Source: Nereocystis luetkeana (Eukaryota; Sar; Phaeophyceae; Laminariales; Laminariaceae). From it: a stretch of DNA of 64,000 bases. The notes beneath the pieces were generated by a model. It had not been told where the DNA came from and ran no database searches. It was given only the letters and a program-made list of their open reading frames with translations. The stretch is from positions 7,757,420-7,821,419 of the forward strand of contig JARUPZ010000021.1 of the NCBI GenBank assembly GCA_031213475.1. Direction: 5' to 3'. A program made the translations under genes and the position numbers. Within the stretch, counting starts at the first letter, position 1. Every line of letters starts with the position of its first letter. This document shows, piece after piece, positions 2,082 to 64,000 of this stretch.

Positions 2082-2090
2082 TACCTGGTA
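2082..2090. repeat. TACCTGGTA micro-insertion in SINE family 1
   Basis: The same insertion is at 38758-38766 in another SINE copy. The 18.4-kb copy reads CCTCCCATGAGTA at the matching place, without the extra seven bases. Confidence 0.7.
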
Positions 2091-2238
2091 GGAGTAGTAG
2101 TAGGCTGGGAAGTGAAAGTGACGATAACCAAAAAAAAAAAACGATGTACCTGGCATATATATATATACCTTGATTTTCCAAGGAATCGATGTAAGTTTGT
2201 AAGAATCCGTAGTTTTAATCACATTGTTGTATATATCA

Positions 2239-2247
2239 TACCTGGTA
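2239..2247. repeat. TACCTGGTA micro-insertion in SINE-associated 3' region
   Basis: This copy reads TATATATCA-TACCTGGTA-GCTCTTTG. The paralogue near 38895-38908 reads TATATATCACAGCTCTTTG. The difference is a clean 7-bp gain at a TA/CA. Confidence 0.75.
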
Positions 2248-2622
2248 GCTCTTTGTGACTTCTGTTTGGGCCCGAGAAGATTCCACCGATATAAATAGAA
2301 TAAGAATGTAGTTTTGCCTCCCGCGCATCTGAGACGACGAAATCGAAAGATATATAATGTAACGATCAAATTGCTCCATTTGTGCTGTGCGCCAGTCGTG
2401 GCCGACGACTTTTTGGGTGATGCGTCTAACCCGACTCGTCTAGATTAAAACATTTCGTGTTAAGTATCCACGGTATATTCCAAACCAGTACAAGATTGAA
2501 TCAAAGATTAACAACAAAACATGAAACCGAAGGTATTTAACGTGCGAAACACATCAAACGTGTGCAAGGAAATTACTTTGCTAGCACATCAAAAGTTCAA
2601 TTCTGTACTTTTGCCAAGCAAC

Positions 2623-3450
2623 TCAACACACGAGTAGTTGGTCGCTAGGTATATTACGTACGAAATTACAAAAACGTGTGCTCGCACGAGTGCCCACTTT
2701 AAATCGTACCTTCAGAGCCAGCCAGTCCTCGAAAAGGGCTTTGGCCTCTTCCTTGGGAGCACGTTCGTGCGGAGACTCGAGATCAACGCCGCTGTCGTCG
2801 ATGTCATCAAATACGCCCGCGTCTTTAGGCCAGTTGACGTTGTGGCTTGCTGCGGCGGCGGCATGCGTGGTTTTCGGCCGCTGCCCCGTCGAAGCCGCTT
2901 CCCCCCCCTGCGCTGGACCCGCGTCCTCGCCTCCTACTGCCGCCGCCTTTGCCCTTGCTCTTATCTCGACGATACTTGCAGTGAGTATGGCGATGACTTC
3001 CGCGTTGATCTTTCCCTTGATCTCCGACGCGGTCGCCAGGTGGGTGGCCTTGCCGGCGGTTGAAGATAGCAGCAGGTCGATGTACTTCAACTTGCGCGTG
3101 TTAGGGCTGAGAAGCATGTCGTTGTCTAGCAGATGAGTACGGCTGTTTAGAGCTTCCCCGTAGCCCGGTAGAAACCGCTTTGCGAGGGCTGCAAAGAAAA
3201 TTTCACGAGTTTGCGGGCCGATGCCAGTCAGCGCGTGGTGGGGTCGGAAGGTCTCCGATGAGGCTTCCGCGTCCTGCCAACCGATGGTTGGCACGTGCAG
3301 AACCTCGAGTGGTTTGGTCGGCTCGAGGGTGTTGGTCAGGAACAGGAAACCCCTCTGCAGCCCCCCTTCTGCGGTAGACTCCAGCGTAATTTGGCACTAC
3401 AGGGTGGCGTCCTTGATCACCTTCAGGATGCTGTACACCAGTACCTCCTG
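2623..3450 (-). pseudogene. hAT-family transposase fragment (central region)
   Basis: The minus strand has an open frame of 223 codons (3294 to 2623). It continues upstream in the same frame to about 3450 through one stop. The order of features (a region like FFAALAKRFLPGY, an Ala/Gly-rich acidic linker, then EEAKALFEDWLALKV) resembles the stretch between the catalytic core and the dimerisation domain of brown-algal hAT transposases as I know them. The N-terminal zinc finger and the final hATC domain are missing here. A further piece of the same kind lies at 4270-4496. It is inactive and could be from another transposase family; the call rests on pattern memory. Confidence 0.5.
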
Positions 3451-10450: not shown

Positions 10451-11040
10451 GAGGCCACAGCCCGGAATGGTGAACAGGCCGTAGATGCCAGCAGATCCAC
10501 ATAAACCGCGCGTGGTCTACTTCTTTAGTCAGGTCTATGTTTGCAGCTTTCATCTGTAATTGCAAGGGAAGCACAACGATGAAAGTTGTCTGAGCACACT
10601 TTTGAGCAACGGAGCTCGTGAACGGGAACCAATTGCGAGCGTAAAAAGTATGTTTTGTGGGCGAACATGAAGAAAAGTGTCGTTCATGCTCTTTTAGGGA
10701 CCATAATTTCGAGTTCCCCACGGTCGCCGTGACATTGTGGTTTTGGCCACCTCGCCCCGTGTTTGCAAAGCGGCGGCACTTAGTGTCTTACTGCAAAATG
10801 CTACTGGCGACGCTAGTCATTCGTGTACTAGGCATGTTTGCCTCACATTTTTCTCCACGAATAGGTTACCCGCAGGAAGGTGGTTGACCTTTTTTAACTT
10901 TCCATGCCTTCATGTACTCGCTCCTACCGTACTCCGTTGCACTCATTAAATTGAGTCTTTTGGGAGTAACCGATTGTCGTCTAGTGATTCAATTGGTTTT
11001 CAGCTTTCTGTCGTAGGTAATACGCTTGAGGGCGTGCTAT
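10451..11040. other. No recognisable feature
   Basis: I see no repeat or protein-like frame between the hAT remnant and the minisatellite. Confidence 0.4.
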
Positions 11041-11758
11041 TAATAGTAGGTATCGATCGACAAAGCACGCATTTTAGTCAAGGCCATAAGCATCGGTCGA
11101 CAGTTTCACATACCCTTGAATCGTAAATGGGCACTAATCGACAACCAAGGCACAACTGAATTAGTCAAAGCAATGGGTATCGATCGACAATTTGGTGCAT
11201 CTACTGGTCAAGTCAAAAGACATCGATCGACAAATGTGTCACCTATCGGTCATGTCAACAGGCATCGAGCGGCAAGTGTGTACTCAAATCCATAGCTAGC
11301 TATCGATCGACTAAGTGGCATACCTATCAACGAAGTCAATAGGCATCGATGGACTAAGTGGCATACCTATTAGACAAACCAATAAACATCGATCGACCAA
11401 GTGGCATACCTATTAGACAAACCAATAAACATCGATCGACCAAGTGGCATACCCCTGGTACATATTAGTAAATCAATAGACATCGATCGTCCAAGTGGTA
11501 TACATATTAGTAAATCAATAGGCATCGATCGACCATGTGGTATACCTGTTAGGAAATCAAGAGGCATTGATAGACTAAGTGGCATACCTATTAACCACAT
11601 CAAGAGGCAGAGATTGACCAAGTGGTATAACTAATAGTCAAATCAATAGGCATCGATCTACTAAGTGACAAACTTATTAACCAAGTCATTCGGCATCGAT
11701 CGACCAACTAGTATACCTCTTAGTCAGATCAATAGGCATCGATCGACAACGTGACACT
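11041..11758. repeat. 43-bp minisatellite (left part)
   Basis: Units begin CATCGATCGACCAAGTGGCA and continue with TACCTATTAGACAAACCAAT. Three starts at 11344, 11387 and 11430 are exactly 43 bp apart; the others vary in length and sequence. The array resumes at 12668 after a hAT element. Units at the edges are degenerate. Confidence 0.85.
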
Positions 11759-16016: not shown

Positions 16017-17633
16017 CTGTGCCACCTGGGCAACTTTGCGTGTTTGTATGCCCAGGGCCTGCCTTTCGTATTTTCTTTCCCCCCCCCCGTGTTTGTCCCT
16101 TTTTGTCCCTTCATTGTTGTCTCTCTTTCTTTACCATTTGTACCTGTTGTTGTCTCTGTTTGTATCTTATGTTTTGCTTTTTCGCTTTTTGCTGTCTGCT
16201 TTTGTTTTTTCTCTCTTCGCTTAATCTTCTTTTGTTTTCTTGTTTTTTGTTCGCTAGTCTTGTTTTGCTTCCCTGGGGTACTTCGTGGTGGAGGGCATGT
16301 GCTTGTTTTTTGTATTCTTGTTTTGTCTCGGTTTTACACCCCGCGCGATGCATGCGAGCCTGAAATCTGTAAAACAATGCGCATGCTCTTGTGTGTGTCT
16401 TTTCTTTGTTTCTGGGTTTTTATTGCTTCCTTACCTGACCTGATTTTTCCTCTCTCTCTTCCCCCTTGGATGTGTGTTTTGTTTTTCGATTTTTGATTTC
16501 GATTTCGATTTTTCGACGTCGAGTTGTTATTTTCATCCTGACTATTTATTTTGGGTAGTATGTGGTCCTCTCGGTTTCCGTGGCGACTTGGACAGCGACA
16601 GCGTACCGCATGTATTTGATACGTACGCGCGCGGATCTCTTTTTTTCATGTTTTTGTCTGAAGTGTAGATGTGCTTCAGTTATCGTGTGTACTACGTTCT
16701 GCTTTTTTTTTTTTTACCGAGGTATTTCTTCCGCTACTCCAGAGTTATTGGAGCCGATCTTGCGACCACGAACTGTATTGTACTACTCTGTTGCGATGAG
16801 TTAATGTGAGAACAACAACAACAACAACAACAACAAAAACAAATGCAGCAAAGCTACGCCACAGATATACAAGTTATGTGGTCACAAAGCTACGCCACAG
16901 AGATACTACGTTGCCACGTACGGTATGCAGTAAGCACAGCAGTGGGCAATGAAATGACGTGTCAACATACTCTTAATAGATACGACAGGTACGACATACA
17001 CAATCTTTGAAATAGAGAAACAAAATGAAACAATCAAAGGGAAACAAAAACAAAGAAGACGAATAAAAAGAGATAAATAAAAAAAAAGCAAAAACTAGGA
17101 GAAACAATCTGTCGTGCCCCCCCCCCCGCAGGTGAGGTGGCCAACACTTGAAAAAGAACTATTTAATAGATGGAAAAAAAAGGAAAAAATAACAAAAACA
17201 CCACCGCTTTTGTGGAAACAGAGTGAAGTGGTAAAACAAAGAACCAGATAAGAAAAAACAAAAGGAAAATATCAGGCAGACAAAAGCCCAAAGCACCCTC
17301 CAGGTGGCGTCAGCAGTTTGTGATGCGAGTAGTATGGCCAGGTTATCCCTGCTTATCCGCATAGTACCTTGCTACCCAGACTGCCGCCTCCGCCCTGCGT
17401 TCGTCAACTTTATGCCTAGCTCCGTTTGGCGTCTTACCATACGAAACGAGCAGAGCAGGTTCGTCATCCAACCACGCCACAGGGCTCCTCCAGTACGGCA
17501 CATCAATCATAAAAGGAGAGAAATAAATAAAATTCAAATCACGGAGAATCAGTGCAAGACATAAAAAAACAAAACAAAAAGAGAAGACAAGGGAAGACCA
17601 CGTTCGAACCCGCTGCACCAGTTGGTGGCACTA

Positions 17634-17739
17634 TTACGGGGGACCATATTAAATAGGACTTCTGATAAACCCGAACACCTACCAGGTATATATTTAGGTA
17701 TTTTTAAGCACAATATGTATTCCTATTTACTATCGGTAA
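17634..17739. mobile_element. TA-flanked MITE, family A, copy 1
   Basis: TA flanks both ends (17632-17633 and 17740-17741). The left end is TTACGGGGGACCATATTAAA and the right end is ATTTACTATCGGTAA. The intact LINE UTR at 45203-45204 has the single TA (reverse complement GCAC-TA-GTAGTATGG), which proves insertion with TA duplication. TACCAGGTA sits inside at 17680-17688. The TA duplication points to Tc1/mariner-type mobilisation. Confidence 0.85.
17680..17688. repeat. TACCAGGTA micro-insertion inside MITE A
   Basis: It is at the same internal position as TACCTGGTA in the 35.5-kb copy but in the other orientation. The 22.2-kb copy reads ATCTATATG with no insertion. Confidence 0.7.
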
Positions 17740-18224: not shown

Positions 18225-18233
18225 TACCAGGTA
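18225..18233. repeat. TACCAGGTA motif
   Basis: An exact member of the micro-insertion class. No paralogous empty site is available in the window. Confidence 0.45.
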
Positions 18234-21461: not shown

Positions 21462-22800
21462 TTATGGCTCAATAATTCTTCATTAAATTAGCACATGTAG
21501 ACCTCTCTCGTGCAAGTTCAATAATACCTCCCAAACTATGATACGAACGACCCCTTGGTCAGGTGTCCCGTTCCTATTCCCCCTTTCACCTCTTACGGAA
21601 ATACCTCCAATGTTTAGTGAAAAAGGGCTAACCAGACCTCTGATGGCCCCACCGCAATCTCTGCGAGGCTATCTACCACTCATCAACAACACCCAAACAA
21701 TAACACCGACTTGTTGCAACCTGATTATCCCTCCTCTAAAACGACAGGGCGGGCGGGGGAAAATCGATCAATTGTCTGGGCACGCTACTTACGAGATTTG
21801 CTTACGAGCTATCTCGTTGTTGCCGCAGCTGCCGTCTGAGCCCAAGAAGCTCTAATGCCTAGACGCTTCCGGCTGTCGACCGATCTCGCCTCATCTCACG
21901 ATTCTGGCAGGTTCCCCGAATTCCAAACCGCCTCCACAAACTCCACCTCCCTACGGGAAGTTACATTTGGTTATGGCTCAAGAATGCTTGATAATTTACG
22001 CATGTAGACCTCTATTATTGTGAAAATCCAATACTTGCCAAACCATGATACGAACGACCCCTCCGTCACATGTCCCGCTCTGATTCCCCCTTTTATCTTT
22101 TCTGGAAAACCCTCCTACGTTTAACGAATAAAGGACAACCCGAACTTTGACGGCCCCGCTGCAATCTCTGCGAGGCCATCTACCGTTCACAACCAACACT
22201 CAAACGTTTAACACCGATTTGTTGCTATTACGGGGGGCCATTGTTAACAGGACCTATGGTATACATGAAAATCTATATGTTTAACAGTTCTTACTAACAA
22301 TATTTACTCCTGTTAACTATGGCCCCCCGTAATACCTGATTTTCCCCCCTCTTGAGCGACAGGGCGGGCGGGTGTGAAAATCGATCAACTGTCTGGGCAC
22401 GCCACTTACGAGATTTGTTACGAGCTCTCGGTGTTGCCGCAGTTGCGGTCTAAGCCCAAGAAGCTAGACGCTTTCGGCTGTCGTCTGATCGCGCCTCATC
22501 TCACGGTTCTGCCAGCTTCTACGAATTCCTAAACGCCTCCACAAACTCCCCCTCCCTATGGGAAGTTACTTTTGCTTATGGCTCGAGAATTCTGGAATAT
22601 TGTTTTCACATGTAGACCTCTATGGTGCTAATCCAATGCCCCCCAAACCATGATGCGAACGACCCCTGCGTCATATGTCCCGCTATGATCCCCCCTTCTA
22701 CCTCTAGGGTAAAACCCTCCTATGTTTAGCGAATTAGGCTAACATGAGCTCAGATGGGCCCGCTGCAATCTCTGCGAGGCTATCTATCACTCACACTATA
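21462..22800. repeat. ~0.5-kb tandem repeat, about 2.5 units
   Basis: Unit starts are near 21462, 21971 and 22574, each with a form of TATGGCTC(A/G)A(G)AATTCT. Shared blocks include CATGTAGACCTCT, GATACGAACGACCCC, CGCTGCAATCTCTGCGAGGC and TGTCTGGGCACGC. Unit 2 carries a family A MITE at 22228-22332; unit 1 has GTTGCAACCTGATT at that place. Part of the unit recurs at 27835-28024. Confidence 0.8.
22228..22332. mobile_element. TA-flanked MITE, family A, copy 2
   Basis: TA lies outside both ends (22226-22227 and 22333-22334). The ends TTACGGGGGGCCATTGTTAA and its inverse are near perfect over about 25 bp. It is the only full copy without an internal TACCWGGTA. Confidence 0.9.
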
Positions 22801-28957: not shown

Positions 28958-28966
28958 TACCTGGTA
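28958..28966. repeat. TACCTGGTA motif
   Basis: An exact member of the micro-insertion class in unannotated sequence. There is no empty paralogue in the window. Confidence 0.45.
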
Positions 28967-32182: not shown

Positions 32183-32191
32183 TACCAGGTA
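32183..32191. repeat. TACCAGGTA micro-insertion in LINE family 1 UTR
   Basis: The intact copy reads GAACTTGTATCTCTTCTAGG (TA at 45969-45970). Here the same place reads AACTGG-TACCAGGTA-TCTCGGTAGG. Confidence 0.7.
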
Positions 32192-32730: not shown

Positions 32731-32827
32731 TACACACACACAATGACATTCACACTACAACATAATGAAATATTTTGAAAAAAAGGGTGTTCTTATGTAT
32801 GTATATAGTTTGTTCAGACGATGTTAA

Positions 32828-35483: not shown

Positions 35484-35599
35484 TTACGGGGGGCCATAGT
35501 AGACAGGATCTATGGTAACGATAAAAACCTACCTGGTATATGTTTAACAGATAATTGTTACTAACAATATTTGGTCCTGTTAACTATGGCCCCCCGTAA
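35484..35599. mobile_element. TA-flanked MITE, family A, copy 3
   Basis: TA flanks at 35482-35483 and 35600-35601. The intact UTR reads GTCGTATC-TA-GTATGATG at 45860-45877, the empty site. TACCTGGTA lies inside at 35530-35538. Confidence 0.9.
35530..35538. repeat. TACCTGGTA micro-insertion inside MITE A
   Basis: At the same internal place, the 22.2-kb copy has ATCTATATG and the 17.6-kb copy has TACCAGGTA. Confidence 0.7.
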
Positions 35600-35785: not shown

Positions 35786-36075
35786 TCACAGACACATTGC
35801 CCACTGCCGTGCTTACTGCATATATATACCTGGTACGTGACAACTTAGTATCTCTGTGGCGTAGATTTGTGACCACAGAACTTGTATCTCTTAGAGGATT
35901 GAAGAATCGGCACGGACACTGGTTGTTCTGGATGTCGACGGGTAGAAGGCACTGTTAAAAGTGGAGAACACACACAAGACCAGTGTGCGTGACGATTCTT
36001 CAATCGTTCGATCGTACGTACTCGTAGAAGAGACACGTTCTGTGGTCACAAAGCTACGCCACATCCGAGATATTC
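35786..36075. mobile_element. Two more LINE family 1 tail fragments, head-on
   Basis: 35786-35985 is a plus-strand tail (ATTGCCCACTGCCGTGCTTA to the CA tail), with TATATATACCTGGTA inserted at 35821-35835. 35986-36075 is a minus-strand piece (GACGATTCTTCAATC, GTGGTCACAAAGCTACGCC). Confidence 0.65.
35827..35835. repeat. TACCTGGTA micro-insertion in LINE family 1 tail
   Basis: The sister tails read GCACACGTGGCAAC (45907-45926 region), GCATACCGTACGTGGC (16.9 kb, minus) and ACATACAGGTACGTGGC (35.65 kb). The TA has thus acquired three different short inserts. Confidence 0.65.
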
Positions 36076-38470: not shown

Positions 38471-39011
38471 CCGGCGTCCCCGTAGGTTTTGTAGGTGGTC
38501 CGCGAGCCTAACAAGATCAATTTCGTAGGTTCAAGTCCCACAGAGTGCATGCTCGTAGGGGCTTTTTCATGAATAATAGCAGATTTGTTTTAGCGGAAAG
38601 CGCGAGAGCGTGAGTTAGGTAGATTCGATGAAAATCGACGAGCAGTGGGAATGCTGAACCCTATGCGCGACAAAAATGAAAGGCACGTACCGGGGGGGAG
38701 AAGGGTAGACACCTGTGACAACGGCTCGTCCAGAAGGTCATCGACGGTAAAACCTCCTACCTGGTACGAGTAGGCTGGAAAGTGAAAGTGACGATAGAAT
38801 AAAAAACGATGAACCTGGTGTATATATACCTTGATTTTTCGAAGGAATCGCTGGAAGGTCGTAAGAATCCGGATGTTTAATCACATTGTTGTATATATCA
38901 CAGCTCTTTGTGGCTTCTGTTTTGGCCCGAGAAGATTCCACCGATATTAATATAACGAGAATGGAGTTTTGCCTCCCGCGCATCTGAGACGACGAAATAG
39001 AAAGATATAGA
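38471..39011 (+). mobile_element. SINE family 1, copy c
   Basis: A full match to 1798-2355, including the tRNA-like head, the body, the A-rich stretch near 38798-38804 and the downstream block to GACGACGAAATAGAAAGATA. TACCTGGTA is present at 38758-38766. The second insertion, at the site matching 2239, is absent. Confidence 0.75.
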
Positions 39012-41213: not shown

Positions 41214-42145
41214 TAGGCTCTTGTTTGCGGGCTTTGTGACACGAATGGGAGAGGAGCGTCTGCCGAAGAGGGTGATGTTTGGGGAGATGGTTGGGGGTAA
41301 GGGTTACTCCGGAGGACAGGAGTGGGACTGGATGAGGTACCTTGAGGAGGACCTCAAGGAGTTCGGCATCAAGCTCGAAGGGTGGCGCGAGGAGGCACAG
41401 AAAGCCGGCAGATGGTTCCGACGGGTCGAGGAAGGGGCGGAGGCCTTCATGCGGAAATGGCATACAGATGAGAAGGAGGCATCGGCAGAACGGGATAGAA
41501 TAGCTGCAACCACGACCACAGCCGTTGACGCCAACGCGAGTGTGCAGAATGGCAGGGAAGAGGGGGGGGGCGAAAGCGGAACGAGGGGGAATGGCGGGGG
41601 GGGGGAGGGGAGGCGGTCTGCCCAACAGACTGAAGCCTGGTTATGGCCATCATCGTCATGATGCACTCCTTTCTTTGGGACCCAAGTAACTAGCATGGTG
41701 CCATCTGGGCAACTTCGCGTGTCTGTATTCTCCAGTGCCTGCCTTTGGTATTTTCTTTCCCCCCCGCCCGTGATTATCGCTTTTTTGTCCCTTCCTTTTT
41801 TTCTTTTTTTTTTCTTTCATTCCCGTTTGTACCTCTTTGTGTCTTTGTTAGTATGGTCCGTTTTGCTTTTTTTTTGCGTTTTGCTATCTGCGTCTGTTTT
41901 TGTTTTGTTTTGTTTTGTTTTTGCTTAGCTTCATCTTCTTTTTTTAGGTTTTTGTCTGCTATTAATAGTCTCCTTTTTGCTTCCCTGGTCTCCGCAGTGG
42001 TGGAGTGCGTATGCTTGTTTTTTGTTTTTTTGCCTCTGTTTTTACTTGAGGTAGTTCTTTCACTCCAGAGTTATTGGAGCCTGTCCTGCGACCACGGACT
42101 GCATTGAATTGTGAATTAATGTGAGAACAACAACAACAACAACAA
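41214..42145 (+). mobile_element. LINE family 2, 5'-truncated copy
   Basis: It begins within the C-terminal ORF region (the frame 41221-41661, GFVTRMGEERLPKRVMFGEM) and runs through the UTR to GAATTAATGTGAGAACAACA and a short AAC tail. The match to 15300-16845 is close, except that it lacks the 237-bp family D MITE and gains TATTAATA at 41960-41967. Confidence 0.85.
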
Positions 42146-43340: not shown

Positions 43341-43389
43341 TTAAACTTGTTGTTTCATATATCTATTTGTTCCCTACCTATTAAGTGGG

Positions 43390-43398
43390 TACCTGGTA
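43390..43398. repeat. TACCTGGTA motif just upstream of the LINE ORF
   Basis: An exact micro-insertion motif ten bases before the ATG of the reverse transcriptase frame, at or near the element's truncation point. Confidence 0.5.
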
Positions 43399-43407
43399 TC
43401 AGAGATA

Positions 43408-45180
43408 ATGGAGCCGTTCTTGGGACCAATACGTCGTACGGCAGAAGTCCCTCAGCAATGGAAAGATGCGATCATCAAGGTCCTTCACAAAAAGAAGGAT
43501 CGAACTGACTGCAACAACTATAGAGGGATCTCGCTTGTTGCCCACGCAGGCAAAGTGTTGTTGAAAATCGTCGCGTCCCGCCTCAGCAACTACTGCGAGA
43601 CCGAGGAACTACTCCCCGAGGAACAATGCGGCTTCCGCCCCGCACGATCAACGATTGATATGTTGTTCGTCGTGCGCCGGCTGCAAGAGCTCGGACGACA
43701 GAGGAAAATCCCCTTATACGTGTGCTTCATCGATCTGCAGAAAGCGTACGACTCTGTCGACCGAGAGCTGTTATGGAAGGTACTCACACGCTTTGGCGTA
43801 CCAACCAAGATGCTGAGAATTATCCGTAATTTCCACGATGGCATGCGGGCTCGCGTGCGTACTGATGACGGCGAGCTCTCGGAATGGTTTGATGTCACGC
43901 AGGGGCTGCGGCAAGGCTGTGTACTGTCACCGTTACTGTTCAACGTGTTCTTCGCTGCTGCGTTACACGTCGTACTAGTACGCTTCAGCCAAGACGAAGC
44001 CATTGTAAGGGATTTGGTCCAACTCTTGGAAGCTGGAGTAGTTCGAACAGGGAAGGAGGAGCCATTGGCGTGCGTGCGAAGGTCTGTATGGGGCATGTTG
44101 TACGCCGACGATGCAGGAATTGTCTCGAAGTCGGCTGAAGGGCTCGCAAAAATGATGACAGTCATCGTGACTGTCTTCGAAACAGCAGGCCTCACGGTGT
44201 CGGAAAAGAAGACTGAGACAATGGTCCTACAAACACCAGACCGGACAACCCTCGCACCACCGCTCGTCATCGAAGCGGCAGGTCAGAGGTATAAGCAGAC
44301 GACCCAGTTCTTATACCTAGGCGGCGTTATCCACGAAAACGCTGACCTCTCGCTCGAAATCGACCGACGGATCCGCCTCATGCGAGCATGCTTCAAACGG
44401 TTCGGCCCGGAGTTGTATGATAGGACGACCGCCCCCCTTAGCCTTAAAGTCCGAATGCTGAAGGCCGAGGTGATTGAGACCCTGCTGTACGGGTGTGTGA
44501 CGTGGACCCTCAGAGCGGAACACTTTGCCAAGCTTCGAACGGCTCACCACCAAGTCCTGTTGCGAGTCATTGGCTTCCAGCGCCGACTTCGTACTGACCA
44601 TGCCACCCTCTCGTACGCGAAGGCCCTCAAGATGACACGTTGCGAGAGCATCGAAACGACCATTCGCAAACGGCGGCTCTTCTTTGCGGGGGGCGTGGCA
44701 CGGCAAAGCAAGGAGCGATTACCCAATCGGGTAATGCTCGGGATGATAGCTGGTGGGGAGAACCCGAGACCAGGCGGACAGTGTAAGACTTGGCATAGAT
44801 GCATAGTCGAAGACCTTAGGGAGTTCCGAGCCACCGAAGGGTCAACGGAAGTTGCCCCCTTGGTGTTTGGAGTTGAGACCGCGTTGTGGTCCACTGCAGC
44901 CAAAAAGGTGGGGAAGTGGTACCGGGGGATCCTTGAAGCAGCCGAACGGTTCATGGTGAGGTGGCACGAGGCTGAGGCTGAGATGAGTAGACAGCGCCGC
45001 GCATCCGCCGTGGATGGTGCCCAAAGGAACGGGGGGGGAGGGGGCAACAGGAGAAGTGGCATAAAGCCCGACCGAGTGAATGCGGAGAGGGGGGGGAACA
45101 GGAGGGGTAGAAGGGAAACGGTGGTAGACGAAAGTAGGAAGGAGATGGCAGACAGGGTAGCAAGGCACCAAGTCGACTAG
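43408..45180 (+). CDS. LINE family 1 reverse transcriptase, open frame of 590 codons
   Basis: The protein is a non-LTR retrotransposon reverse transcriptase, which would copy the element's RNA at a nicked target. From about residue 15 it reads [17 protein letters not shown], then NNYRGISLV (39-43 region), [14 protein letters not shown] (71-84), [12 protein letters not shown] (motif A, Asp109), [13 protein letters not shown] (167-179), YADD (232-235), FLYLGGVI (301-308, thumb), YGCVTW (361-366) and a basic tail. There is no upstream endonuclease domain, so the copy is 5'-truncated. The ATG is simply the first in frame after the break and may not be a natural start. The absence of stops over 1.77 kb, unlike the family 2 copy, suggests recent insertion. 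It is followed by an 888-base 3' UTR with a CA tail. Confidence 0.9.
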
Positions 45181-49108: not shown

Positions 49109-49699
49109 TTACGCGGCACAGAGGAGGTTCCACGTACATTTCTTTTGTTACGAGTAGACGATACAAAGCTCTCACCCGTACTGCAGGGTCAAGATAGTGT
49201 CTGAGAATAACTACTTATGATGTGAGTGGTTAGTCCTTCTTAGCGGCACTTTTTCATAATCCTTTCAAAACTTGGTAGACCAGCTTGGCTCGTGATATTT
49301 TATACTCTCCGAGCGGTCTTCTGGACACGTGGTGTGTCGTCCATTTATTTCAACAAAAGGTGCCTTAATTGTGTCGTCAATATTGTTTACTGTCGCTGCT
49401 CGCTTCTTTTGGACGCAATGTCGCTAACATGCCGAACATTTTTAATAAAAAGTGAAGTTTTTTACCACTAATACCTGCCACGTGTATGCACTCGGTGGGA
49501 GTCGCATCCACGATCGTCGTCAGACGTGAGGACCACCAACAAGTCACCGGGAAATCTAAATGGCCCTGCAACTCGTTTTCTTGTACCAATAACCCGGAGA
49601 AGAAAAAGAAAATGAATGCGACAAGGCCGACCTCAATATTCGAGCGCGTTGAAAGATTGAAACAATCGAAAGATCTTATGGGATAGTCTTCAGTACCTG

Positions 49700-49906
49700 G
49701 TATATATTTTTTCACCGACATTTTTTTCCCGCCTTTCGATCTTTCATTTTTTCCTGTTTGTCGAAATGTGTTAAGTTTAAGGAGTTTCATCTTTCGCTGA
49801 TGGATATTTTCACGAAGAGTGATGCCCTCCTCTGTATATTGACACGTATCTCCAATTATTCCCAATGTATGGAAATCGTGGAAGATGCGCTCTCCGATGA
49901 GAACAC
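49700..49906. mobile_element. MITE-like element, family D, decayed copy 3
   Basis: The right end GCGCTCTCCGATGAGAAC and inner words (TCACGAAGAGTGATGCCCTC, TGTATATTGACACGTATCTC) match family D. The left end is degraded. TACCTGGTA lies at 49694-49702, at its left edge. Confidence 0.5.
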
Positions 49907-52768: not shown

Positions 52769-55700
52769 ATGAAATTCGGATACGTGCTGCTGGGGCTGGT
52801 GACGCTTACGTCCATTCATATTTCGAACGGTGAGCCTGATGCTTTGGGAGATGCTTGCACGGTAGCTCTGACCGCAAAACCCCACTGGGGCCGGCGTTGT
52901 AACCTCGCCGGCGATCTAGTGAGTTATTCAGCGAGGGGTAACCATGCACTTTTTTCACCCGCTGTATACAAATAAGCTCCCTTATTCCATCCTGGCAGCA
53001 AGGGCGATGTATCAACTTTTAAATAATGGAGGGAGGCGGGGTGATTTTGGCGGGGTTGCTGATCATGCATATTTGTACCTTGGGAAATCGAGGGTAAATA
53101 CACCAACGGTACGGAACATACCTGGTAGTGTGATATGCACTGGTTTAAAAGCAGTTATTATTGACATATTGTATCCGTGTATGTATCTCGTGAACCGAAC
53201 TGCCTATATTTTGTTGACCCCAAACATGGCACTATAATGCCCCATCTCAGGAATGTTGTGGACACAATGAAGCAAACACGCGTGCAGTAACACATCAGAT
53301 AATAGAGCACGTTTTTGACGGTATTGTTTCTGAACTTGAACGACGATGTGTGTCGATTGAGGAAGAAATCGATGTTGAGCCAATTTATCTACCACAACTG
53401 TGGGCGTCCGCACCCACGCTCGCCGTGATCCTTGGTTCTGTTACGGTGCAGGCCAATGCAGCAACGGTTTGGCTGGGGTTGAGAATGACGACATCTGCTG
53501 CGCTGAATCCTGCGGCACCTGCGGAGGGAGCCGTTGCGCCAGACGACCCGGCGGTGGGGTGAGTTGCTCTCTGCTTAAGATGCGTGCCACTGCGTAATGA
53601 TACAATGTGCTACAGCCGAAACAATATTTGGCTTGTTGCTCCCGAGAGTTCACTCACCCCATCCGACATATGCAACCGTGAACATACCTCACAGTGAAAC
53701 GCGACGGAAGACTTCAACACGGGTTTTACGAGCTGCAGTAGTTACATCTGGCGGGTTTGAGTGTGTACTGCTCAGCATGGACAGCTTTGAACATTGCATG
53801 AATCGCGTCCACCCTCTTCATTTAAACAGGACAACTGCTGCACCGGCCGGATCGAAGACAGTGGAGATATGTGCAGCGTCACCGGCGCGGCGCCGTGCAT
53901 CATGGATGACATCGTTCCAGGTGCGTCGTGTGTAACTCTCGGTAGACCAGTGACTACCACCGTCGCTGGATTTGCACCTTTCGTGACATCGACGTGTTCT
54001 TCTCCTGTTGATTTTACCGTCGACAATTCAACGGCTGCGCTAAGTAACAGGAACATTGAAATGATGTCCAACGAAGCCCAGGCGGCCCCGTGAATCGTCT
54101 AGAATGTCTGTACGTCCTGCCGATATTCAGCTACTCAAAACCTCCTGTATAGATGGCTGTGCAGCTTTCATGGCGTCTGCTTTAGGTTGATGGGTTGTTG
54201 CTCGCCTCTTGGTTTTTATTGTTACCGTCGCAATGTGTCTGAAATTCCATTTTTGTTAGCAAGGGTCACGTACCGTCATGAACTTATATGCCACCTCGAT
54301 GCGTACTCTGGTTGTGCAGACACCACCTGCAGTAACGGCCTGCCGGGAGTCGACAATGGCCAAGTCTGCTGCACTGCTGGCTGTGGCACTTGCGGAGGAA
54401 GCGGTTGCTCCAGACGATCAGGCGGAGGGGTTAGTTGGTGTCTGTGGATAACGCGTGGAGATGCTAACGTTTTCGTTTAATAATTGTTCAAGCCCCCTTC
54501 AACGTAGTTCTAAACGACCCTCCCCGGAGAAACGAACTATCAAAACTATCGTTCTTTTGAAGTCAAATATATACAAACATGAACTAACTGGACAAAAAAA
54601 AATTAGTATCTTTTTTCGTCTGATTCCGACCAAGACGTGGTTTTGGGTAGATATTTGTTCGAAGAATTATTCCATCGACCCACTCATCACTACATAGCCA
54701 AGTGTGTCATGAAGCAAAGGTGTTAGCAAGTACAAGCGACCTAGTTCGCAAAAACCTACGCACCTCTTCAAACGCGTGAACAAATTACCACAAGCTTGCA
54801 AGATGAGTTTGGAATACATATCCGATTTCGAAGCTTCGAGGGTAGTTCACTTTTATTCTAATAGGTTTTCCAGCCGCAGTTGGGCTGTTTTATATTTTTC
54901 CGTATTGGTTACGTACCACAGCTTCCCAACAACACCGGTTTGACAAATGCATCCCATCCTCGCCCCCTCGTCTGTGGGCAGGAAAACTGCTGCTCCGGCG
55001 CGATCGAGGACAGTGGCGATCTCTGCAGCGTCACCCTGGCGGCGCCGTGCATAATGGACGTGGACATAAGTACGTCTTAGGAATATTCCGTGTAGGTCGG
55101 CGACTACCACCCCTGTAGTCAAGTGTGGCCTCTTTTATGACTACTTGCCAATGTATTTGACTTTTTTTCCCAACACGTGTAATTTTCTGCGGCACGTAGC
55201 AACGTATCTGAACCTTCGCGATGGGCGACGTGTGGCATCGGTAAAAATTTTTTTTCACGTGGTTGATATCGCGAAGCCTGCAAATGTGAAATTCTCTTTT
55301 GTTGCTCGTCTTATGGACCCCGACGGCATGGGGTAAATATACTACAGGAGAGAAATATAACATTTTTTACCAACGATTGCCCCATCTGGAAACCTGTTCG
55401 TTTCCGCTGCGTGCCAGCGTCCGTGCGTTTTACGTAGACCTTGGTTTGACGTGCGGGTAGTCTGAGATGTTGTGTATCAGGTCAAGTTTGTATTGCTCGA
55501 GGTCGGCGTCGGAGTGAAACACCTCTCTTTTCCTTTTTTTCACCACATGTCGTCATTCCCACCTGAGCCCATCCATCGATCGGTCAAGGAGGTAATACAA
55601 CGTGTTTCCGTATTCCCGCTATCGTTTTTTCAACCTTTTCCCTCCCCCCTGTTTGACAACCTCACAGACCCTACCTGCACCAACAATCTGCCCGGCATCC

Positions 55701-57856
55701 AATCGGGCTCCATTTGTTGCGAAGCTCAGTGCGGAACCTGCGGAGGAGCAGGTTGCGCCGGGCGTCCCGGTGGCGAGGTTCGTTAGTGGCTATTGATTTC
55801 ATGTGTAGCCCCCTGTTAGCAGGCGCCCCTACCGAATTATGCAGTCTTGGTTTTCCGTGACCTCGAAAGCGCGGAAAGGCTTGGAAGCACTGATGATCTC
55901 TTGGTCTAGACGCTTGGCAGGAAGACCTACCCTGCTCGGCGCCCATACGTCAAGTATGCCGATCAGTGTTGGATTTTTTTTTGTTTTTCGACATTTTGTG
56001 CACGTACGAGACCAAGGGGGGAACACCCCGCGCGAACAATTGTACTTCCGTCAAAGTGGATGTTTCTACTGGATTGGGGTCAGGTTTGTAAAGTTGGCTA
56101 TATTATTGAACAGGGTCTGTCGGTGAGACACATAATATATGTGCCAAGTATCAGTGTTTCTCGCCTAACCCCTCTTCCTCAAGTTGTCAGGATTGTTTCA
56201 AATTACCGGCCAATATTTTTGGCGATAGTGATGTGCTCAGGCACAGGAGTGTGCGCTTCTGCTCTTGCTGACGAAAGCATTTCATACCTTGTTTGCCTCT
56301 CAACAGACAAGCTGCTGCACATCGATCATCATGAGCGATGGCATGAACTGCACTACCGCCATGGCCGCGCCGTGCATCGTTGACGGTAAGGCTTCGTCGT
56401 GCTCCGATCTACAGGGAAACCATCGTGTACATATACTGGGCTGGAATACAGTTTCCTGACTCCGGTATACGCTCGCCACCTCGGCTCTCGGTTGTTTATA
56501 GCTCTCTTTTGTGACTGCAGCGAACAACCTTAATGTTTTACGAGTCATCATAGCGAACGGTACGATGAAAGGCATGAAGTTGTAAGTGTAGGAACAAAGC
56601 AATTGTTGTAGCCGTCGTCGATGCGGTTCTAGTGTGGGCGCGTGTTTTGCTGTATCCAAAGGTATCGTTGTTTTGGGAAACCTTGTCATTTGGGTTACAT
56701 ATAGTGCTTCAGACGGTCACGTGAGGAGTTAAGACTCGGAACCAAAGTGGCGCTGTTGTTTCTTTTCGTTTTTGTTTCGGCCTACGCATGCGATAGGCCA
56801 AGGTAAAGCGTCCGTTATTTTGTTGTCCAAAACGAGATTTTGATAAGCACGAAGTTCGTCATTTCGTAAGCCTCGGACAACCTAGGTGCTACCCCTAGAA
56901 GAAACGCACACGCGTCCGGCGGTAGTGTGAGGGTGGGGACGGGTTACCGACTTGGGACACCGATGGCTGACGTTGAAGATCAGTTGCACTTCTCGCACCC
57001 GTGTGCACGCCGAGCTCAAGTTCTGGTCTACTCATGATTTAGTCTACCCTGACTGGGTGTGCAGGGCAATGGCTGGAGGCCTAAAATCAAGATGTCTTGA
57101 ACCGGTAGATATACCATACGACAAAATCGGCAGTTGGTCGCGCTCGGTCCGTACAATAAAGATATCCTTTGCCTGTTTTCGTTGTGCACACGCTAGTGCT
57201 ATTTAGCTCGTGCTCTTTGGTGTGATTTCGAATCTCTTTCTGCTGTCACTACATGCATTATTTTGTACAGGAGACTTCCCCGAGGTGCCCGTGGCACTTT
57301 GCAGCAACGGTGTGGTTGGCGTGGAAAATGGCGGTATCTGTTGCGAGGCTGGTTGCGGGACATGCGGAGGAAGCGGATGCTCCAGGCGTCCCGGAGGAGG
57401 GGTGCGTTCGAAAATCGGTGTCGTACGCATGCTGCAGTAGTAGGGTGTCAATGTTTTGCTTACGGGGCTTCCGGCTTATAACGAATTTATACCTCGCCCG
57501 ATAAGTGACCTTGAAAAAACCCTCGAAGCCCAACCGGATGACACATGTGATGGCCTGGATATTCAAAACTATTTTTTTTGCGAAAAAAACAATTACAACA
57601 AATGTGGGTTCAGGAGCGCCCCGCCATTCATCACGCGTTTTGTTCCATGTTGTGCCCTATTTTTAAGGTGTTGCTCGCACCCTGCCTTCACCAGTAAAGC
57701 GCTTGTTGTGCTTACCCCCCTGACATGGCCGGGTCGACAAGAACAGTGCATCCCTCGCCCCTGCTTCCCGTCATGTAGGACGCCTGCTGCACGAGCCGAA
57801 TCGAAGACAGTGGAGTGATGTGCGACGATATGATGACGGCGCCTTGCATCGTCTGA
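52769..57856 (+). CDS. Secreted cysteine-rich four-module protein, 9 exons, 284 aa
   Basis: Exons: 52769-52829, 53452-53558, 53830-53920, 54320-54429, 54982-55069, 55668-55777, 56307-56385, 57271-57401, 57779-57856 (TGA). All introns are GT-AG, and the lengths sum to 855 bases in one frame. Exon 1 encodes a signal peptide (MKFGYVLLGLVTLTSIHIS). Four modules follow, each from an A exon (CSNG-x-x-G...CC...CGTCGG-x-x-C...R-x-GG, phase 1 in, 0 out) and a B exon (CC...I-x-DSG...C...APCI, phase 0 in, 1 out). The third B exon lacks the usual I-x-DSG spacing. I associate this cysteine pattern with brown-algal predicted proteins of unknown role; an extracellular or wall function is inference. Each A+B pair is a symmetric 1-1 unit, well suited to duplication. 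The start is supported by the signal peptide and the phase match. Confidence 0.9.
53119..53127. repeat. TACCTGGTA motif in intron 1
   Basis: The only exact micro-insertion motif inside the host gene. It lies in the 622-base first intron, away from the splice sites. Confidence 0.5.
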
Positions 57857-60116
57857 AATGACGCGGACGTCGAGGACTGCTGAAAAACGACAGGTATGAT
57901 CTAATATTCGCACCTGTACCCTGTAGAGCGCTGGTCCAGCCGTAATCGCGTGGTTTCAGTGTGGTTCCTCTCATTTTTCGGGATAGATTTTTTGTTGAAC
58001 AAACGACTACATGCGAATTGCCTGTAGAACAGTCAAAACTGACTCGCTAACTTCTGTGTGGAAACCAGGAAGTTGGATCGTCAAGAGCTTGAAACTTAAA
58101 AAAGCGGAAAATGTCCAGATAGCAGAGCGTCGAAGAATCCATACACATATCCATCCGCTGTACATTGCTTTTAGTTTCGTGTAGACCGCAAAGTAGATAT
58201 ATTATGGAGTGAAAACACGTGGGGTGTATATACCACGTTCGAAAGAAGTAAAAACGCTGATCGAATGTGAATCAGTTATGTATGTACGTATAAAATTCCC
58301 GCTCCGTTCTACGACAAAGGTAAGACGTACGTATAAAACTCCCGCTCCGTAAGGTCATGCAAATAGGAACTCAGGGACCAAGCGTGCGCATGTAATGTAG
58401 CGGGCGTCTTAGTCGAACCTCCTAGAGACTGAATGCATTCGGTAACGGTATCGGTTGAGTTTCAAGTGTGTTGGTCCGCATCGTCGAGTGAGAGCTTTAC
58501 TTGTTCCGGGAGGGTGTTGGAGAGGTTGTCTCACGCGTAGGAGTTGCAACCACAGGTGTCGCGAGGGATGTCGATGTAACAGGGCAGACGGCCTAAAGTT
58601 ACCGGAGAGTTTTTTTGCCCCCATCACTGTTCTCACTATCCAAAGACTTCTTTCTGAGGCACCGACGCTGCCGTCTCCTGAGCTTCCAGCAGCCTGTCGC
58701 GATGAACCCTGAATAGCCATGGAAGCGGCCCTTTCACCAGAGTAAAACCTGACAAGCGTTCAATGAACCCCTGACAGCTAACAAAAAACTGTCTGCCTTA
58801 GCTAACAAAAGGTAGACAATAATACGTTCGTGGTGGGGTTTGAGATTTTCATGTGCACTTGATGCTCATTTTCGGCATTCCGTGAAAACCAAAATACTGA
58901 AAACGGGAATAACAATACACTTACACTGAAACGAGAATAACCAGGGACAAGATGGGAACAGAGTCATTCAAAATTGAGTTTGAGAGAAACGTGTCCGCAG
59001 ACAGGGATGATGCAACGTACTGGTATTTTTCAGTATCTTGGTGGAGACGTCAATGGGTGGGAGGCTCGTGACATAAACAATTGCCATTACTCGCATGACC
59101 CGAACGAATCGGTTTGACTACTTGCATCAACATGAACAAAACGAGAACTGGTTGTAACAAATTTCACGGACCTATTCGAAACGTCTGGATTGTTTGTTCG
59201 ATCCCTTACGCGCCCTACGCCGACGCCGTGCTTGTCCCCCCCCTCCTACTTTGCTCGGCACCCCGTGTCCGGATCTACTCATTGTTCAAGCCTGATTTTA
59301 TTCCGGGGCCAGCATTCTATTGAAGGTCGATGAAAAAAATCGTTTCGGAAACAAGATAACATCACACTTGTACGTACGCTTGTCGACTGGTGGTCCGGGA
59401 GCCTACTCGCAGCAGCAAGCCCATCGGAGTACGTCATCTTGGCCTTCGAGGAAGTGTGGGGGATGTTAACCGAACGCGGATATCCCCTGAAAAACATTTC
59501 ACGTTTCATAATATTTTGTCGTGCCTGGATATCTGGGGCAGTTGGAGTGGCTGGAACAGTTCCAAGTGAAATAAAAGCACGGTTTAAATATTACCATTCG
59601 TCCACTAGAGTCATCGCGCAAGTCGGGTAGGCCGATGGTCTCGGGTGAATTGTGTCGCACACTGCGTTAATTTGTGTACTTGCAACCAGCATACACGGAA
59701 AACATTCACTACTGTAGTACTACATTATTCATCCGGGTGCTGGGATGCGTTGTGTTTTTTCACACTCCCGGGAAGACTAGCGTCGAGCCTGCATCAAGCT
59801 GGAATAGAGGTTTAGTGTAACAGGGCCGTGCTATTGTGCTGCTACTTCATTGTTGAGAAACGTAACGGTTGGAGGAATGTCATTTGGCATTATGTTCTGT
59901 CTCCAACAATCCCTTGTGGTTGGATTTTTTCTCTTCCCGTGTTCACTGTCGAAATTATATATGTTGAAGGATCTTGACTAGAATTGCGAAAGTGGTGCTT
60001 GCGAGATAATTCATATCCGGGCTGCCGTTTTACCTTCAAGATGTGTAATGGGCAGCTATATATGATACCAGGTATGTTTTTTCCTTCGTCGCTTTACCTG
60101 GCATGATAACTTAAGC
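57857..60116. other. Mostly unrecognised sequence downstream of the gene
   Basis: It contains a short direct repeat, ACGTATAAAATTCCCGCTCC versus ACGTATAAAACTCCCGCTCC (about 58285 and 58330). The frames at 58409-58720 and 59114-59323 are unrecognised. No polyadenylation signal can be assigned with confidence. Confidence 0.35.
60066..60074. repeat. TACCAGGTA motif
   Basis: An exact member of the micro-insertion class; further ones lie at 61957-61965 and 62897-62905. No empty paralogues are available. Confidence 0.45.
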
Positions 60117-60655
60117 TTGTCGGGACCTCTCTCGTGTCTGGGTGGCTCGCCCGCTGGTTGTCAAGAGCTCGTAGTGGGGGTTGGTGTAGTAACCACAGTC
60201 AGCGTTTCATGGTTGGTATTTTCTCGTGCAGCTTATCTGGCCCCTGTCGTAACGCTCACCCGATTCATGGGGAGGATATTCAAAATACAGTGGTGGGTAA
60301 TACTACAATACCAGTTGGTCCATATAGGGAGATGGGGTTATAACTTTTTTGTGGAGGCGCGTCTAGGAAGGCTGTCGTGTACCGAATGTTGCATCGACTT
60401 GGCGCCTGATTGGCTGGTGCTAAGCAATTGGGTGATAGGATCGATGTTTTTCGATTAACCGCTTCACAGGGCGAAGGTACTATCGTTTTTGCGTTTTGTG
60501 TAGCGTCTGGCATGGATGGACGCTGTTGCATTGCTCCGGTGGTTGATACAGATGCTACGGAGATTAGGTTTAATAATGCAGTGGATGGCGATCGCTTATC
60601 ATTCAAAAGTGTGCCGTCCTGCGCGTTGACCGGGTTGCTCGCCTGTCGGAAGTAA
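60117..60655 (+). CDS. Candidate unrecognised gene fragment with possible introns
   Basis: Three stretches look exon-like. The first is GPLSCLGGSPAGCQELV near 60120. The second is SGPCRNAHPIHGEDIQNTVV, after an AG at about 60230 and before a GT near 60296. The last runs from an AG at 60469 (GEGTIVFAFCVASGMDGRCC) to a TAA at 60653-60655. I cannot verify phases or a start, and no family is recognised. Confidence 0.25.
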
Positions 60656-60783
60656 AGGGCAGGAATATTTGTCTTGTAATAGTACTAAGACTTACTTGTG
60701 TAACCAAAACGTACGGCTGAATGTTATGACTCATCCGTGTGTCTGGGATCAACAAGATATCTCGCGGGCATTATGTATTGGAG

Positions 60784-61710
60784 TCAGTGAGACAAGGCGG
60801 TATCATCTTCACGGAATTCGTCACAATGGTACTGCATAGTCATGTCGTGTTCTGTTAGGCTGTTTGCTGCTTCCTTCTGCCCGTGAGCGACATCTATATC
60901 GTGTAACCGACACCACTCTCCTCTCTTGGTCATGAAAGCAATCCCCGCCAGCATGGCAGTACAATACCTGTTTAATCCATCCAGGCCGCTATATACTCCT
61001 ATCCAGTAGTAAACGTTTCTGCTATATCCCTTCACGTTGCGCGATCGCAGTGTAAGGCTGACGAAATATGTTGGCGTATCTACTTCAGGAACGGTGCGCT
61101 AACCGAATTTGGTCGTCCCACCAACGGTCGGCGAGAAAGCGTTTCTGGCGGTGCCGGCGTCCTCGACAAACATACCGTGTTGCTATGACGTTCCCTCATG
61201 GAGAGATCAACTGCTACGTTGTAGTTTGGAGGTTGTGGTCATCAATACAGAAACTAGCTTTTGAGAAAAAAAAGGGACGAAAGGAGCGTGAGGTGATGGG
61301 TGTGACGATCTTCGTGCGTTCACCTTTGCCTAGGCGGATCATGGGACACTTTCAGGAAGGCGTGAATACCTCTTCCTTACCGTTGGGCACGGTCTAAGAA
61401 AAGCTAGGGCCCATGGTTTCATCGCCAGAACCAAGAAGTAACCTCTGTGAACAGAACTACGAAAAAGTAATCGCTCAGCCTCGCCGTCCATTTCTTGGCG
61501 TTTATAATGTGGATTTCTTGTCAGCGCGCGGTTTTCTCGCGTGTTTGTAGTCACACGATCGAAGGGGGTCGGATGCAATGCATTCACGCCGGGCTCATGA
61601 TGAGACCTGTTTGCAAAAACAGCTGCAGCGGCGTCCCCTGGGTCCGCGGCGTCATTATCTGAAGCAACCTCGTCCATTGTGATCGATCTATTCCAAATTT
61701 TCCGCTCCAT
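60784..61710 (-). CDS. Candidate unrecognised minus-strand coding region
   Basis: An open frame from 61710 starts in a reasonable context at an internal ATG (MDEVASDNDAADPGDAAAAV) and stays open to 61339. A second frame, 61035-60784 (YYWIGVYSGLDGLNRYC...), ends in a stop. Both have protein-like composition, but I cannot link them by splice sites or name a domain. Confidence 0.25.
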
Positions 61711-64000
61711 CCAAAAGGAACTCTATCGGGCCTCGGCACATTTCTTTTGGAGCAACGTTTGTACTGCCAGTGGCATCATTAGCTCAAGCGGCTTGTGGGT
61801 CGTGATAGCGGACTCGCCTTATATCTAGCCTTTCTTTCCATAAATGGAGACGGAGGAGATAATCAAATGCAGTCCCAACAAACGCCCATTCGAGTACTCT
61901 CGTTTCGGTGTCATTTTAGGTTCGTTGAACCGTCTCATTTTTTGTTCGCGAAAACCTACCAGGTATCAATTAGGCTTGAGTTCCCCGGTACATTATCGCC
62001 GCAAGTATAACTTACCAGATTTACCGATGGTGTACCGAGTGGTGCCATCGATGTGGAATCAATGCACATCGCGTCGCAGGACCAGACTTGACATCTTAAT
62101 CTGCAGCAGATGACACGAAAGACTGCTAACGGAACGAAGGATGGGTTTTCGTCAAAACCTGGTGGAGCTGAATGGTAAAGCAGTGAACGTTGGTCTACCA
62201 GACACGGACCAGACTGCTCGGTAGGCACTTCATAGGCTTCGTCCGTGTTCGAGACGAAGGGCATCAATGCTCCCCTTTTGGTATAAATGCGTGGATACGG
62301 GTAGCGAAGACGTCGTCGAGCCCCAACGAAATTCGCCGCCATGCCACTATATACATTTCACTTCTCCGCATGTTCAGCATTGGCAGTGTCGCAGCAAGGG
62401 AAATATTTTCCCATACCGTTGCTGCAAACTGCCCCTGGTACTCCTGGTGGGCTGTCAAGGGTTCAAGGGACTGAGCGACGGCGCCGGTGTGGAGCCGTTA
62501 CATCAAGATGCTCTAGGAGCCAACTGGTTTACAGCAATAAAAGACTGCCATCGACGCATCCTGCGGTGGGGGTAGACCGAGACTCTTTTAGGCTGTCCAC
62601 ACTGGGGAAGACTCTACCTCGCTTCAAACTGGACCTTGGGGGCAAAATTTGCATGCCCAGCCAGATATACAATACCACTGGCTACACGTAAGCATAGAGG
62701 ACTGTTGATGCTGTGAAGTGGACGTCAGCGACAGTTGAGCGCCCTGCCTCTCAAAATACATCCAGGCCCCCTAACTGTAGTACTTCGTATACCGTACGTG
62801 TAGCGTGGGGCACTCGGCTTCTCCGATCTCCGCAGGACATCACGCGCTAGCTAAGAAATCGAAATAAAGCACCGCATTACAGCTAAAGCATATACATACC
62901 AGGTACGGAATGCGTTTGAACTATCGCTGGGCGTACAGTGCATTCCAACCACTACTTCGCACGGCCGACGCGAATGGCATAGGTTGATAGTTGGTTAATA
63001 CGATGAAGCTGTATACGGCGCAAACTGTAGCCATCGTTCCGTCAAAGGTGCCTCAGTCCTAATACTTTCATTCACACCCGCGTCGTTTTATCGCACGCAA
63101 GGGACGGCGATAATTGGAACAAAAGTTTTGTCCGGAACACATATCACGTCCGCCATGCCACTTGCTACTGATTATAGTGTTGTATTCAAAATGTCACTCA
63201 GGTACGTTTTGACACACAAGCTGCGTAGACCGACCTCCCGAATAAGTGCAAGCAATACACAAACAATCTGCAACCTCAACTGACAGGTAGTCAGTCCTGG
63301 AAACAACAGAACGCTACGAGTAAGCGACATACTGTCGTCGTTGATGATGCACAGCGCCACCGGGATGTCGCCGCAATAAACGACCATGTCCCTATGTTTG
63401 CTAGTTGAGCAGAAGCAAGGCCAGCATGAGAAAAGGTGAGAAACAAAGGGCGGAATTGGGGGTCGAGTAGCACACCTGGTACGTTTTCTTGTCAGATGTT
63501 TGTAAACCTGGTGGTGGGTGCGATGTTAACGCGGAGGGGGTTGTGGCTGGCGCACGATACCAGAGAAGACACGCTCCCGGAACTCCTATGGTTTTATGCG
63601 GCACGTTCTGTTATATGGTGTGAGCTCCGCTCCGAATGGGACAAGTAACGTCCTATCTCAAAGGTGCCGGTTGTCAACGTAGTTGGAGGGGACGAAGAGT
63701 AAATGAAGACAATGCTCGATGCATTACGTGGATGTAATCTCTGAGTGAGAACTGCGACAACCGTAAGTACTACGACGTCGTAGGGCCATAGCTCCCAGTG
63801 CATTTCCGGTGAGACGTTTCCGACATGCCGCCCACAATATCACATCATACGATAGGTCAATGGCCGCGCACACGATTTGCTTTTAAGACTACGATCGGCT
63901 GTGTACCACGTATAGGTGAGAGGTAGCACAGCTCGTTGTGACGCCTGAAGCACGCAAAGGAGTCATACAGTTCAAGACAGGGTTGGGCCGACCTCGTTAT
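61711..64000. other. No recognisable gene
   Basis: Short frames only. One, 63498-63648, begins right after a pyrimidine-rich CAG and runs MFVNLVVGAMLTRRGLWLAH to a TAA; it could be a last exon but nothing supports it. TACCAGGTA occurs at 61957 and 62897, and CACCTGGTACG at 63474. Confidence 0.3.

Follow-up and report, generated by a model that had tools for sequence, protein, structure and literature searches.

The nine-letter word TACCWGGTA (W being A or T) occurs 15 times in a 64,000-nucleotide stretch of the genome of the brown alga Nereocystis luetkeana (contig JARUPZ010000021.1 of assembly GCA_031213475.1; G000:C21:7757420-7821419 in our numbering), hereafter referred to as the window. 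Counts in the window and in the complete genome, comparison of filled and empty repeat copies, and the variety of strings present at a single TA dinucleotide indicate that this word is very probably a real and fairly young scar, generated by repair following the excision of a cut-and-paste transposon inserting at TA.

Abundance of TACCWGGTA and empty-site comparisons

The 15 sites of the window (Table 1) compare with 0.27 expected by chance, and at most 3 sites were obtained in any of 100 shuffles. An initial annotation of the window, based on the letters alone, had reported these sites and their excess over chance; all 15 coordinates proved exact. Among the over-represented 9-mers of the window, only simple-repeat words ranked above TACCWGGTA. 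The genome-wide count proposed in the same annotation was performed on 465,085,209 bases (1,987 contigs), and the same word reversed (mirror image) was used as the control for genome-wide counts. TACCWGGTA was present at 182,395 sites and the reversed word at 1,744 sites. The frequency was therefore not close to expectation but in excess by approximately 105-fold. The scar count differs by region since a sample of contig C1 contained 47 sites in 210 kb, a density lower than that of the genome.

In a 244-kb sample, 61 exact scars were detected versus 2.2 expected, and 70 sites with one mismatch versus approximately 49 expected (eight sites with a C or G centre being counted once). Thus, few scars have decayed and the majority look young, with a divergence of roughly a few percent. 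Based on the TA density of this sample, approximately 0.75% of the TA dinucleotides are scarred genome-wide, and 7.9% at one site of a miniature inverted-repeat transposable element (MITE), designated MITE A. Scars were also found in tandem (TACCWGGTACCWGGTA), indicating that the TA of a scar had been used again. Eight tandem pairs were present among 100 genome-wide sites listed, five in the same orientation and three in opposite orientations. Scar-bearing sequence was separately observed on one strand of G000:C9:6406217-6424352 with a spacing of ~1.5 kb, and seems to belong to a scar-containing tandem repeat.

Repeat copies containing the scar were compared to related copies by pairwise alignment. 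Empty copies displayed TA and filled copies TA-CCWGG-TA. Of five such comparisons put forward in the initial annotation, three were clean insertions of 7 letters, involving a short interspersed nuclear element (SINE; 2082 versus 18700), a second site (2239 versus 38899), and MITE A (35530 versus 22275). The remaining two did not stand as described. At position 35827, in the tail of a long interspersed nuclear element (LINE), the insertion was of 13 rather than 7 letters, TATATA accompanying the scar, and a sister copy (35649) harbored CAGG at the corresponding TA. The alignment of 32183 with 45969 was gapped and too divergent for a clean call, with TA replaced by TACCAGGTA at the right place. 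Opposite orientations of the insert at one MITE A site (CCTGG at 35530 and CCAGG at 17680) were observed as announced, as was CA in place of TA in the empty copies near 18700 and 38899.

A gap survey was also performed by all-against-all alignment of the window and of loci fetched from the genome. Gaps of 4 to 60 letters were kept if they could be read as TA-X-TA versus a single TA. The X rows comprised CCTGG (19), CCAGG (12), TTAA (12), TT (8), TA (4), and other strings (1 to 3 each), these rows not being independent since a single gap may appear at several positions. Among the CCWGG rows (31 in total), 22 originated from loci L022 to L041, which were fetched for a scar-bearing repeat, versus nine from the window and loci L001 to L021 alone; for TTAA (12 rows in total), the figures were 10 and two.

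Scar spectrum at a single TA and a proposed excision model

MITE A is an element of ~105 bp, which starts with TTACGGGGGRCC and is flanked by TA duplications; relatives devoid of the element are known. A string spanning one TA inside MITE A, GTTAAACATATA...GGTTTTTATG with 0 to 14 letters between the two halves, had 2,483 exact copies genome-wide and is referred to as the hot spot. Among the first 100 copies listed, 91 were empty and nine were scarred, at variance with the possibility, raised in the initial annotation, that the short copies were generated by random deletions. This result bears on the explanation that the 9-mer is ancestral or functional, i.e. a protein-binding or copied motif, and that the short copies are deletions. 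The strong over-representation, taken alone, would suit a selected motif. However, most of the hot-spot copies listed are empty, filled and empty copies differ by exactly CCWGGTA across unrelated repeats, one TA bears different scars, and tandem double scars occur. These observations largely contradict an ancestral or functional origin of the 9-mer, which we regard as highly improbable.

An insert starting with C and closed by TA was present in 195 of the 2,483 hot-spot copies. The 100 inserts listed out of these 195 were of 21 kinds: CCTGG (42), CCAGG (28), CCGG (4), CTGG (4), CCATGG (3), CCCTGG (3), CCAG (2), and 14 strings present once each, among which a double scar and other scar types (e.g. 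CTCCGGAG and CTTCGAAG). Additional patterns, whose listings overlap one another and the former, provided similar strings. In one of them (100 listed of 231), CCTGG was present 59 times, CCAGG 33 times, CCGG six times (with an unrelated right flank in one case), and CCGGG and CCAG once each. A pattern designed for two-letter centres gave 40 places, which harbored CCCTGG (18), CCAGGG (6), CCATGG (3), CCTTGG (2), CCAAGG (1), CCCAGG (1), CCG (3), three-letter centres (2), and other strings (4). In the five places matching a third pattern, the scar was followed by a second insert, CCAAA in two copies, CCATGC, CCAG, and one insert with loss of TA. The copies with CCAAA and CCATGC are located at G000:C15:8866411, C38:2481521, and C18:4449738, and these inserts may represent what is left of a longer element-end fragment. 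CCWGG was found in both orientations on both common variants of the flanks. The variety of the hot-spot scars looks like the outcome of recurrent events at one TA.

We propose that a transposase would cut inside the ends of the element in such a way that the first four to five letters, 5'-CCAG(G), protrude on both broken ends, each adjacent to a TA of the duplication. Both ends, of the predicted form CCAG...CTGG, would re-anneal via C:G pairing on either side of a central A-A mismatch, and repair retaining A or T would generate CCAGG or CCTGG. Pairing one step further apart would lead to CC[A/C][G/T]GG, and one step closer to C[C/T][A/G]G. A low-copy element jumping repeatedly could have left scars at up to ~180,000 sites, part of which may have been multiplied through the copying of host repeats. 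This excision logic would be that of Tc1/mariner or pogo elements, a group to which the putative transposon is tentatively assigned.

Of the 100 scars listed among the 195, 87 were accounted for by the three registers: CC[A/T]GG (70), C[C/T][A/G]G (10), and CC[A/C][G/T]GG (7). All ten four-letter scars belonged to the predicted set, in a comparison that was not blind since CCGG, CCAG, and CTGG were already known when the rule was written. For the two-letter centres, 27 of 31 were AG, AT, or CT, as predicted by CCAG ends; CCTG ends predict one of 31. The data show directly that insertion occurs at TA, that the word is enriched, that scars at one TA vary, and that they follow registers; the transposase, the CCAG...CTGG ends, and the Tc1/mariner-pogo grouping are inferred.

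Parent element, alternative explanations, and additional scars

Several observations weigh against the excision of a transposon as the origin of the scars. At the hot spot, 13 of the 100 scars listed did not fit any of the three registers, other scar families being the source of some, and the second inserts CCAAA (found twice) and CCATGC were also outside the model. The latter was partly fitted on the same hot spot with overlapping listings. The 195 scarred copies do not correspond to 195 independent events since scarred MITE copies may have copied onward. The full element with TA-CC...GG-TA ends, for which the initial annotation had proposed a search, was not identified in 352 kb; the hot-spot patterns did not reveal a parent either, a weak negative since those for two-letter centres and for second inserts would let through an estimated one third of full elements. 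The DDE_3 profile had no match in the genome and matched three of 14 control genomes. Transposase_1 had no match in the genome and likewise none in any of the controls, leaving this profile devoid of a positive control. The DDE_1 profile (pogo/Fot1) had 28 matches in the genome, nine of which are accounted for by the eight loci that were read. Clear TA-flanked inverted ends were present in two of these DDE_1 elements (L044 2352-4963 and L049 1309-3286), both of which start with CAGT and therefore mismatch the CCAG of the scar. TACAGTA, the scar expected from CAGT ends, was weakly enriched (62 versus 40). The missing parent is not contradictory to excision since an element that transposes by cut-and-paste without gaining copies can scar many sites while remaining rare.

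Scans for inverted ends starting from TACC, TACCAG, TACCTG, and TACCGT did not reveal a convincing parent. A perfect palindrome of 53 bp starting with TACCAGGTACTACAGC (L013 388-440) was considered as a tiny parent and dropped. It had 436 matches with up to three mismatches, and the 20 copies that were fetched corresponded to an old scar in a long repeat, L013 being a fold-back. Scar pairs separated by ~340 bp in L006 and L007 were rejected since the surrounding repeat extends beyond both scars, as was the pair 32603-33878 of the window, which lies inside a larger inverted repeat. For the candidate pair at L044 52-1389 (ends TACCTGAAAG), the match continued into both flanks. In the candidate pair at L008 3193-5081, mismatches were about as numerous as in pairs expected by chance, and those at L005 6176-7571 and L010 331-3210 are possibly two scars each. 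Three structures were also noted. A large inverted repeat occupies positions 32408-34068 of the window; its arm pieces measure 137 and 110 nt, are 92-95% complementary, and lie ~1 kb apart. At L047 1204-6592, two inverted arms, each longer than 1 kb, are almost identical in sequence, and a DDE_1 match lies on either side. In the long-repeat copy at L024 201, homology has a scar as its exact starting point; the flank upstream is unrelated, a configuration reminiscent of the joining of two broken sites at this scar.

Little else than the scars might survive of a transposon that is now close to extinct or entirely gone: some 180,000 inherited sites would coexist with very few resident elements, following frequent jumping without gain of copies or insertion of CCWGG at TA without a long-lived element. 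We make this proposal tentatively and consider it rather doubtful. In another scenario, most sites would never have held a transposon; an enzyme would cut TA, and a 5-bp CCAGG duplex would be added through end joining or through aborted transfer of an end. That no parent was identified in 352 kb or among the hot-spot copies is in agreement with such an enzyme, as is a short and uniform scar (CCWGG in 70 of 100 listed). However, the variants obey the re-annealing of two CCAG ends, TTAA, another TA scar of the same genome, can be tied to an ordinary element, and many scars with few elements are already explained by cut-and-paste transposition without gain of copies. Insertion without an element is therefore unlikely. 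Ciliates are known to excise TA-bounded elements from the somatic nucleus. A comparable programmed or somatic elimination, removing TA-bounded elements in development and leaving only scars in the sequenced tissue, would also account for scars whose parent was not identified. In contrast, an identical scar is common to many copies of a repeat family, indicating that it was inherited and copied, and we know of no nuclear dimorphism in brown algae. We consider this origin very improbable.

Excision of a TA-inserting transposon is further supported by the second scar, TTAA. At the place matching MITE A at 35483, another LINE copy (16972) contains CTCTTAATAG and a third copy CTAG. The word TATTAATA was present 25 times in the 244-kb sample versus 1.4 expected, and 10 times in the window (11038, 33251, 36407, 38945, 39124, 39986, 40461, 41960, 49097, and 51305). 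Its flanks favour TAC-TA...TA-GTA (C-TA-G). Two of the three window copies of MITE A are inserted in C-TA...TA-G, and TA copies flank MITE A at positions 17633, 22226, and 35482 of the window and at L002 6304. TTAA is therefore probably, and most simply, the excision scar of MITE A itself, a TA-duplicating element distinct from the one proposed for CCWGG. The flanks of the CCWGG scar are A/T-rich, unlike those of TTAA, suggesting that another element is behind CCWGG. Together, the empty sites, the varied scars at one TA, and a second scar that can be tied to a visible TA-duplicating element support the initial proposal that TACCWGGTA is a footprint left by excision of a transposon that targets TA and has CC...GG ends.

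The hot spot also led to a palindrome, TACTTCGAAGTA, with 2,133 sites versus 7 for the reversed word (example at G000:C7:5751145-5751184). It is perhaps a third family of TA-target scars, with CTTC ends. In view of this enrichment, the genome may bear scars of several TA-target families.

Known footprints and other features of the window

The Sleeping Beauty scar, TAC[A/T]GTA, follows the same logic of a central A/T mismatch, and the ends of the Mos1 mariner element are CCAGGTG. As for Tc1/mariner elements, including Sleeping Beauty and ZB, the target is TA, the element ends would lie between two copies of TA, and the footprints are short and stereotyped. Available extracts of the literature report footprints of 2-4 bp for Tc1/mariner elements in general and 0-3 bp for ZB (PMC7913693); unlike these, the main scar is here 5 bp in length and its parent was not identified. 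In the model described for Mos1, the 5' break is located two or three letters inside the element (extract of PMC2642840), which would generate a protrusion shorter than the four to five letters proposed here. Passer, of the pogo superfamily, generates a TA duplication, as here, and footprints of 0-4 bp (extract of PMC9976928). Pogo-type DDE_1 genes are present in the N. luetkeana genome, although the two elements with clear ends start with CAGT, unlike the CCAG of the scar. The footprints of Stowaway/Osmar5, which are plant Tc1/mariner elements, retain 2-4 bp of the terminal repeat at one flank and 1-2 bp at the opposite flank; as for the scars described here, the totals include 5 bp, several scars exist per site, and insertion occurs beside an old scar (extract of PMC1925063). 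The 5-bp scar is thus longer than the 2-4 bp of Tc1/mariner elements in general but within the Stowaway/Osmar5 range. The latter footprints were described at single loci, in contrast to one scar word at 182,395 sites. We judge that the kind of footprint is known and that the novelty lies in its scale and in the unidentified parent, not in its length. Such scars were not described in the accessible records retrieved with the word TACCTGGTA (judged by title; TACCAGGTA was not searched) or under footprint and brown-alga topics.

In the extracts consulted, excision footprints were described at single loci or in plasmid assays; here, inherited footprints of a single type number on the order of 100,000. 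Close to 200 of them at one identical TA make the end-joining spectrum directly readable in the inheritance line of a brown alga. The data suggest that a cut-and-paste element can heavily alter a genome by TA insertions of 7 bp, leaving little for repeat annotation. With a CCAG end predicted from the scars, the parent becomes searchable in related algae.

Table 1. Scars and MITE A copies in the window (positions in the 64,000-nucleotide stretch).
Feature	Position	Strand	Remarks
Scar TA-CCTGG-TA, SINE body	2082..2090	.	Copy at 18700 empty
Scar TA-CCTGG-TA	2239..2247	.	Copy near 38899 empty, reads CA
Scar TA-CCAGG-TA in MITE A	17680..17688	.	Same TA as 35530, orientation opposite
Scar word TACCAGGTA	18225..18233	.	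Word match alone
Scar word TACCTGGTA	28958..28966	.	Word match alone
Scar TA-CCAGG-TA, LINE-related sequence	32183..32191	.	Empty-site alignment unclean
Scar TA-CCTGG-TA in MITE A	35530..35538	.	Empty in copies at 22275 and L020
Scar TA-CCTGG-TA with six extra letters TATATA, LINE tail	35827..35835	.	
Scar TA-CCTGG-TA, sister SINE copy	38758..38766	.	Same site as 2082
Scar word TACCTGGTA	43390..43398	.	Word match alone
Scar word TACCTGGTA	49694..49702	.	Word match alone
Scar word TACCTGGTA	53119..53127	.	Word match alone
Scar word TACCAGGTA	60066..60074	.	Word match alone
Scar word TACCAGGTA	61957..61965	.	Word match alone
Scar word TACCAGGTA	62897..62905	.	Word match alone
MITE A copy (starts TTACGGGGGACC)	17634..17739	.	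TA both sides; empty relatives near 45201 and 34372
MITE A copy	22228..22332	.	TA both sides; empty relative near 21717; without CCWGG scar
MITE A copy inside LINE copy	35484..35599	.	
Second scar type TA-TTAA-TA	41960..41967	.	TA empty in copy near 16019
TATTAATA, second scar type	11038..11045	.	One of 10 in window; word match alone
TA-TTTAA-TA, likely variant of second scar type	17160..17168	.	

Other features were noted in the window and in the genome. An open reading frame of 611 codons encoding a reverse transcriptase domain (PF00078) is located within a LINE-like element at positions 43345-45180 of the window (+ strand). Positions 53457-57855 contain several diverged direct repeats, whose text resembles a cysteine-rich coding stretch. 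Words of the TTAGGG type were plentiful in the sample that covers the start of contig C1. Finally, PF19114 (EsV_1_7_cys), a family that is typical of brown algae and on which the host is judged to be one, had 1,711 candidate places, of which 150 were scored and all of these matched.

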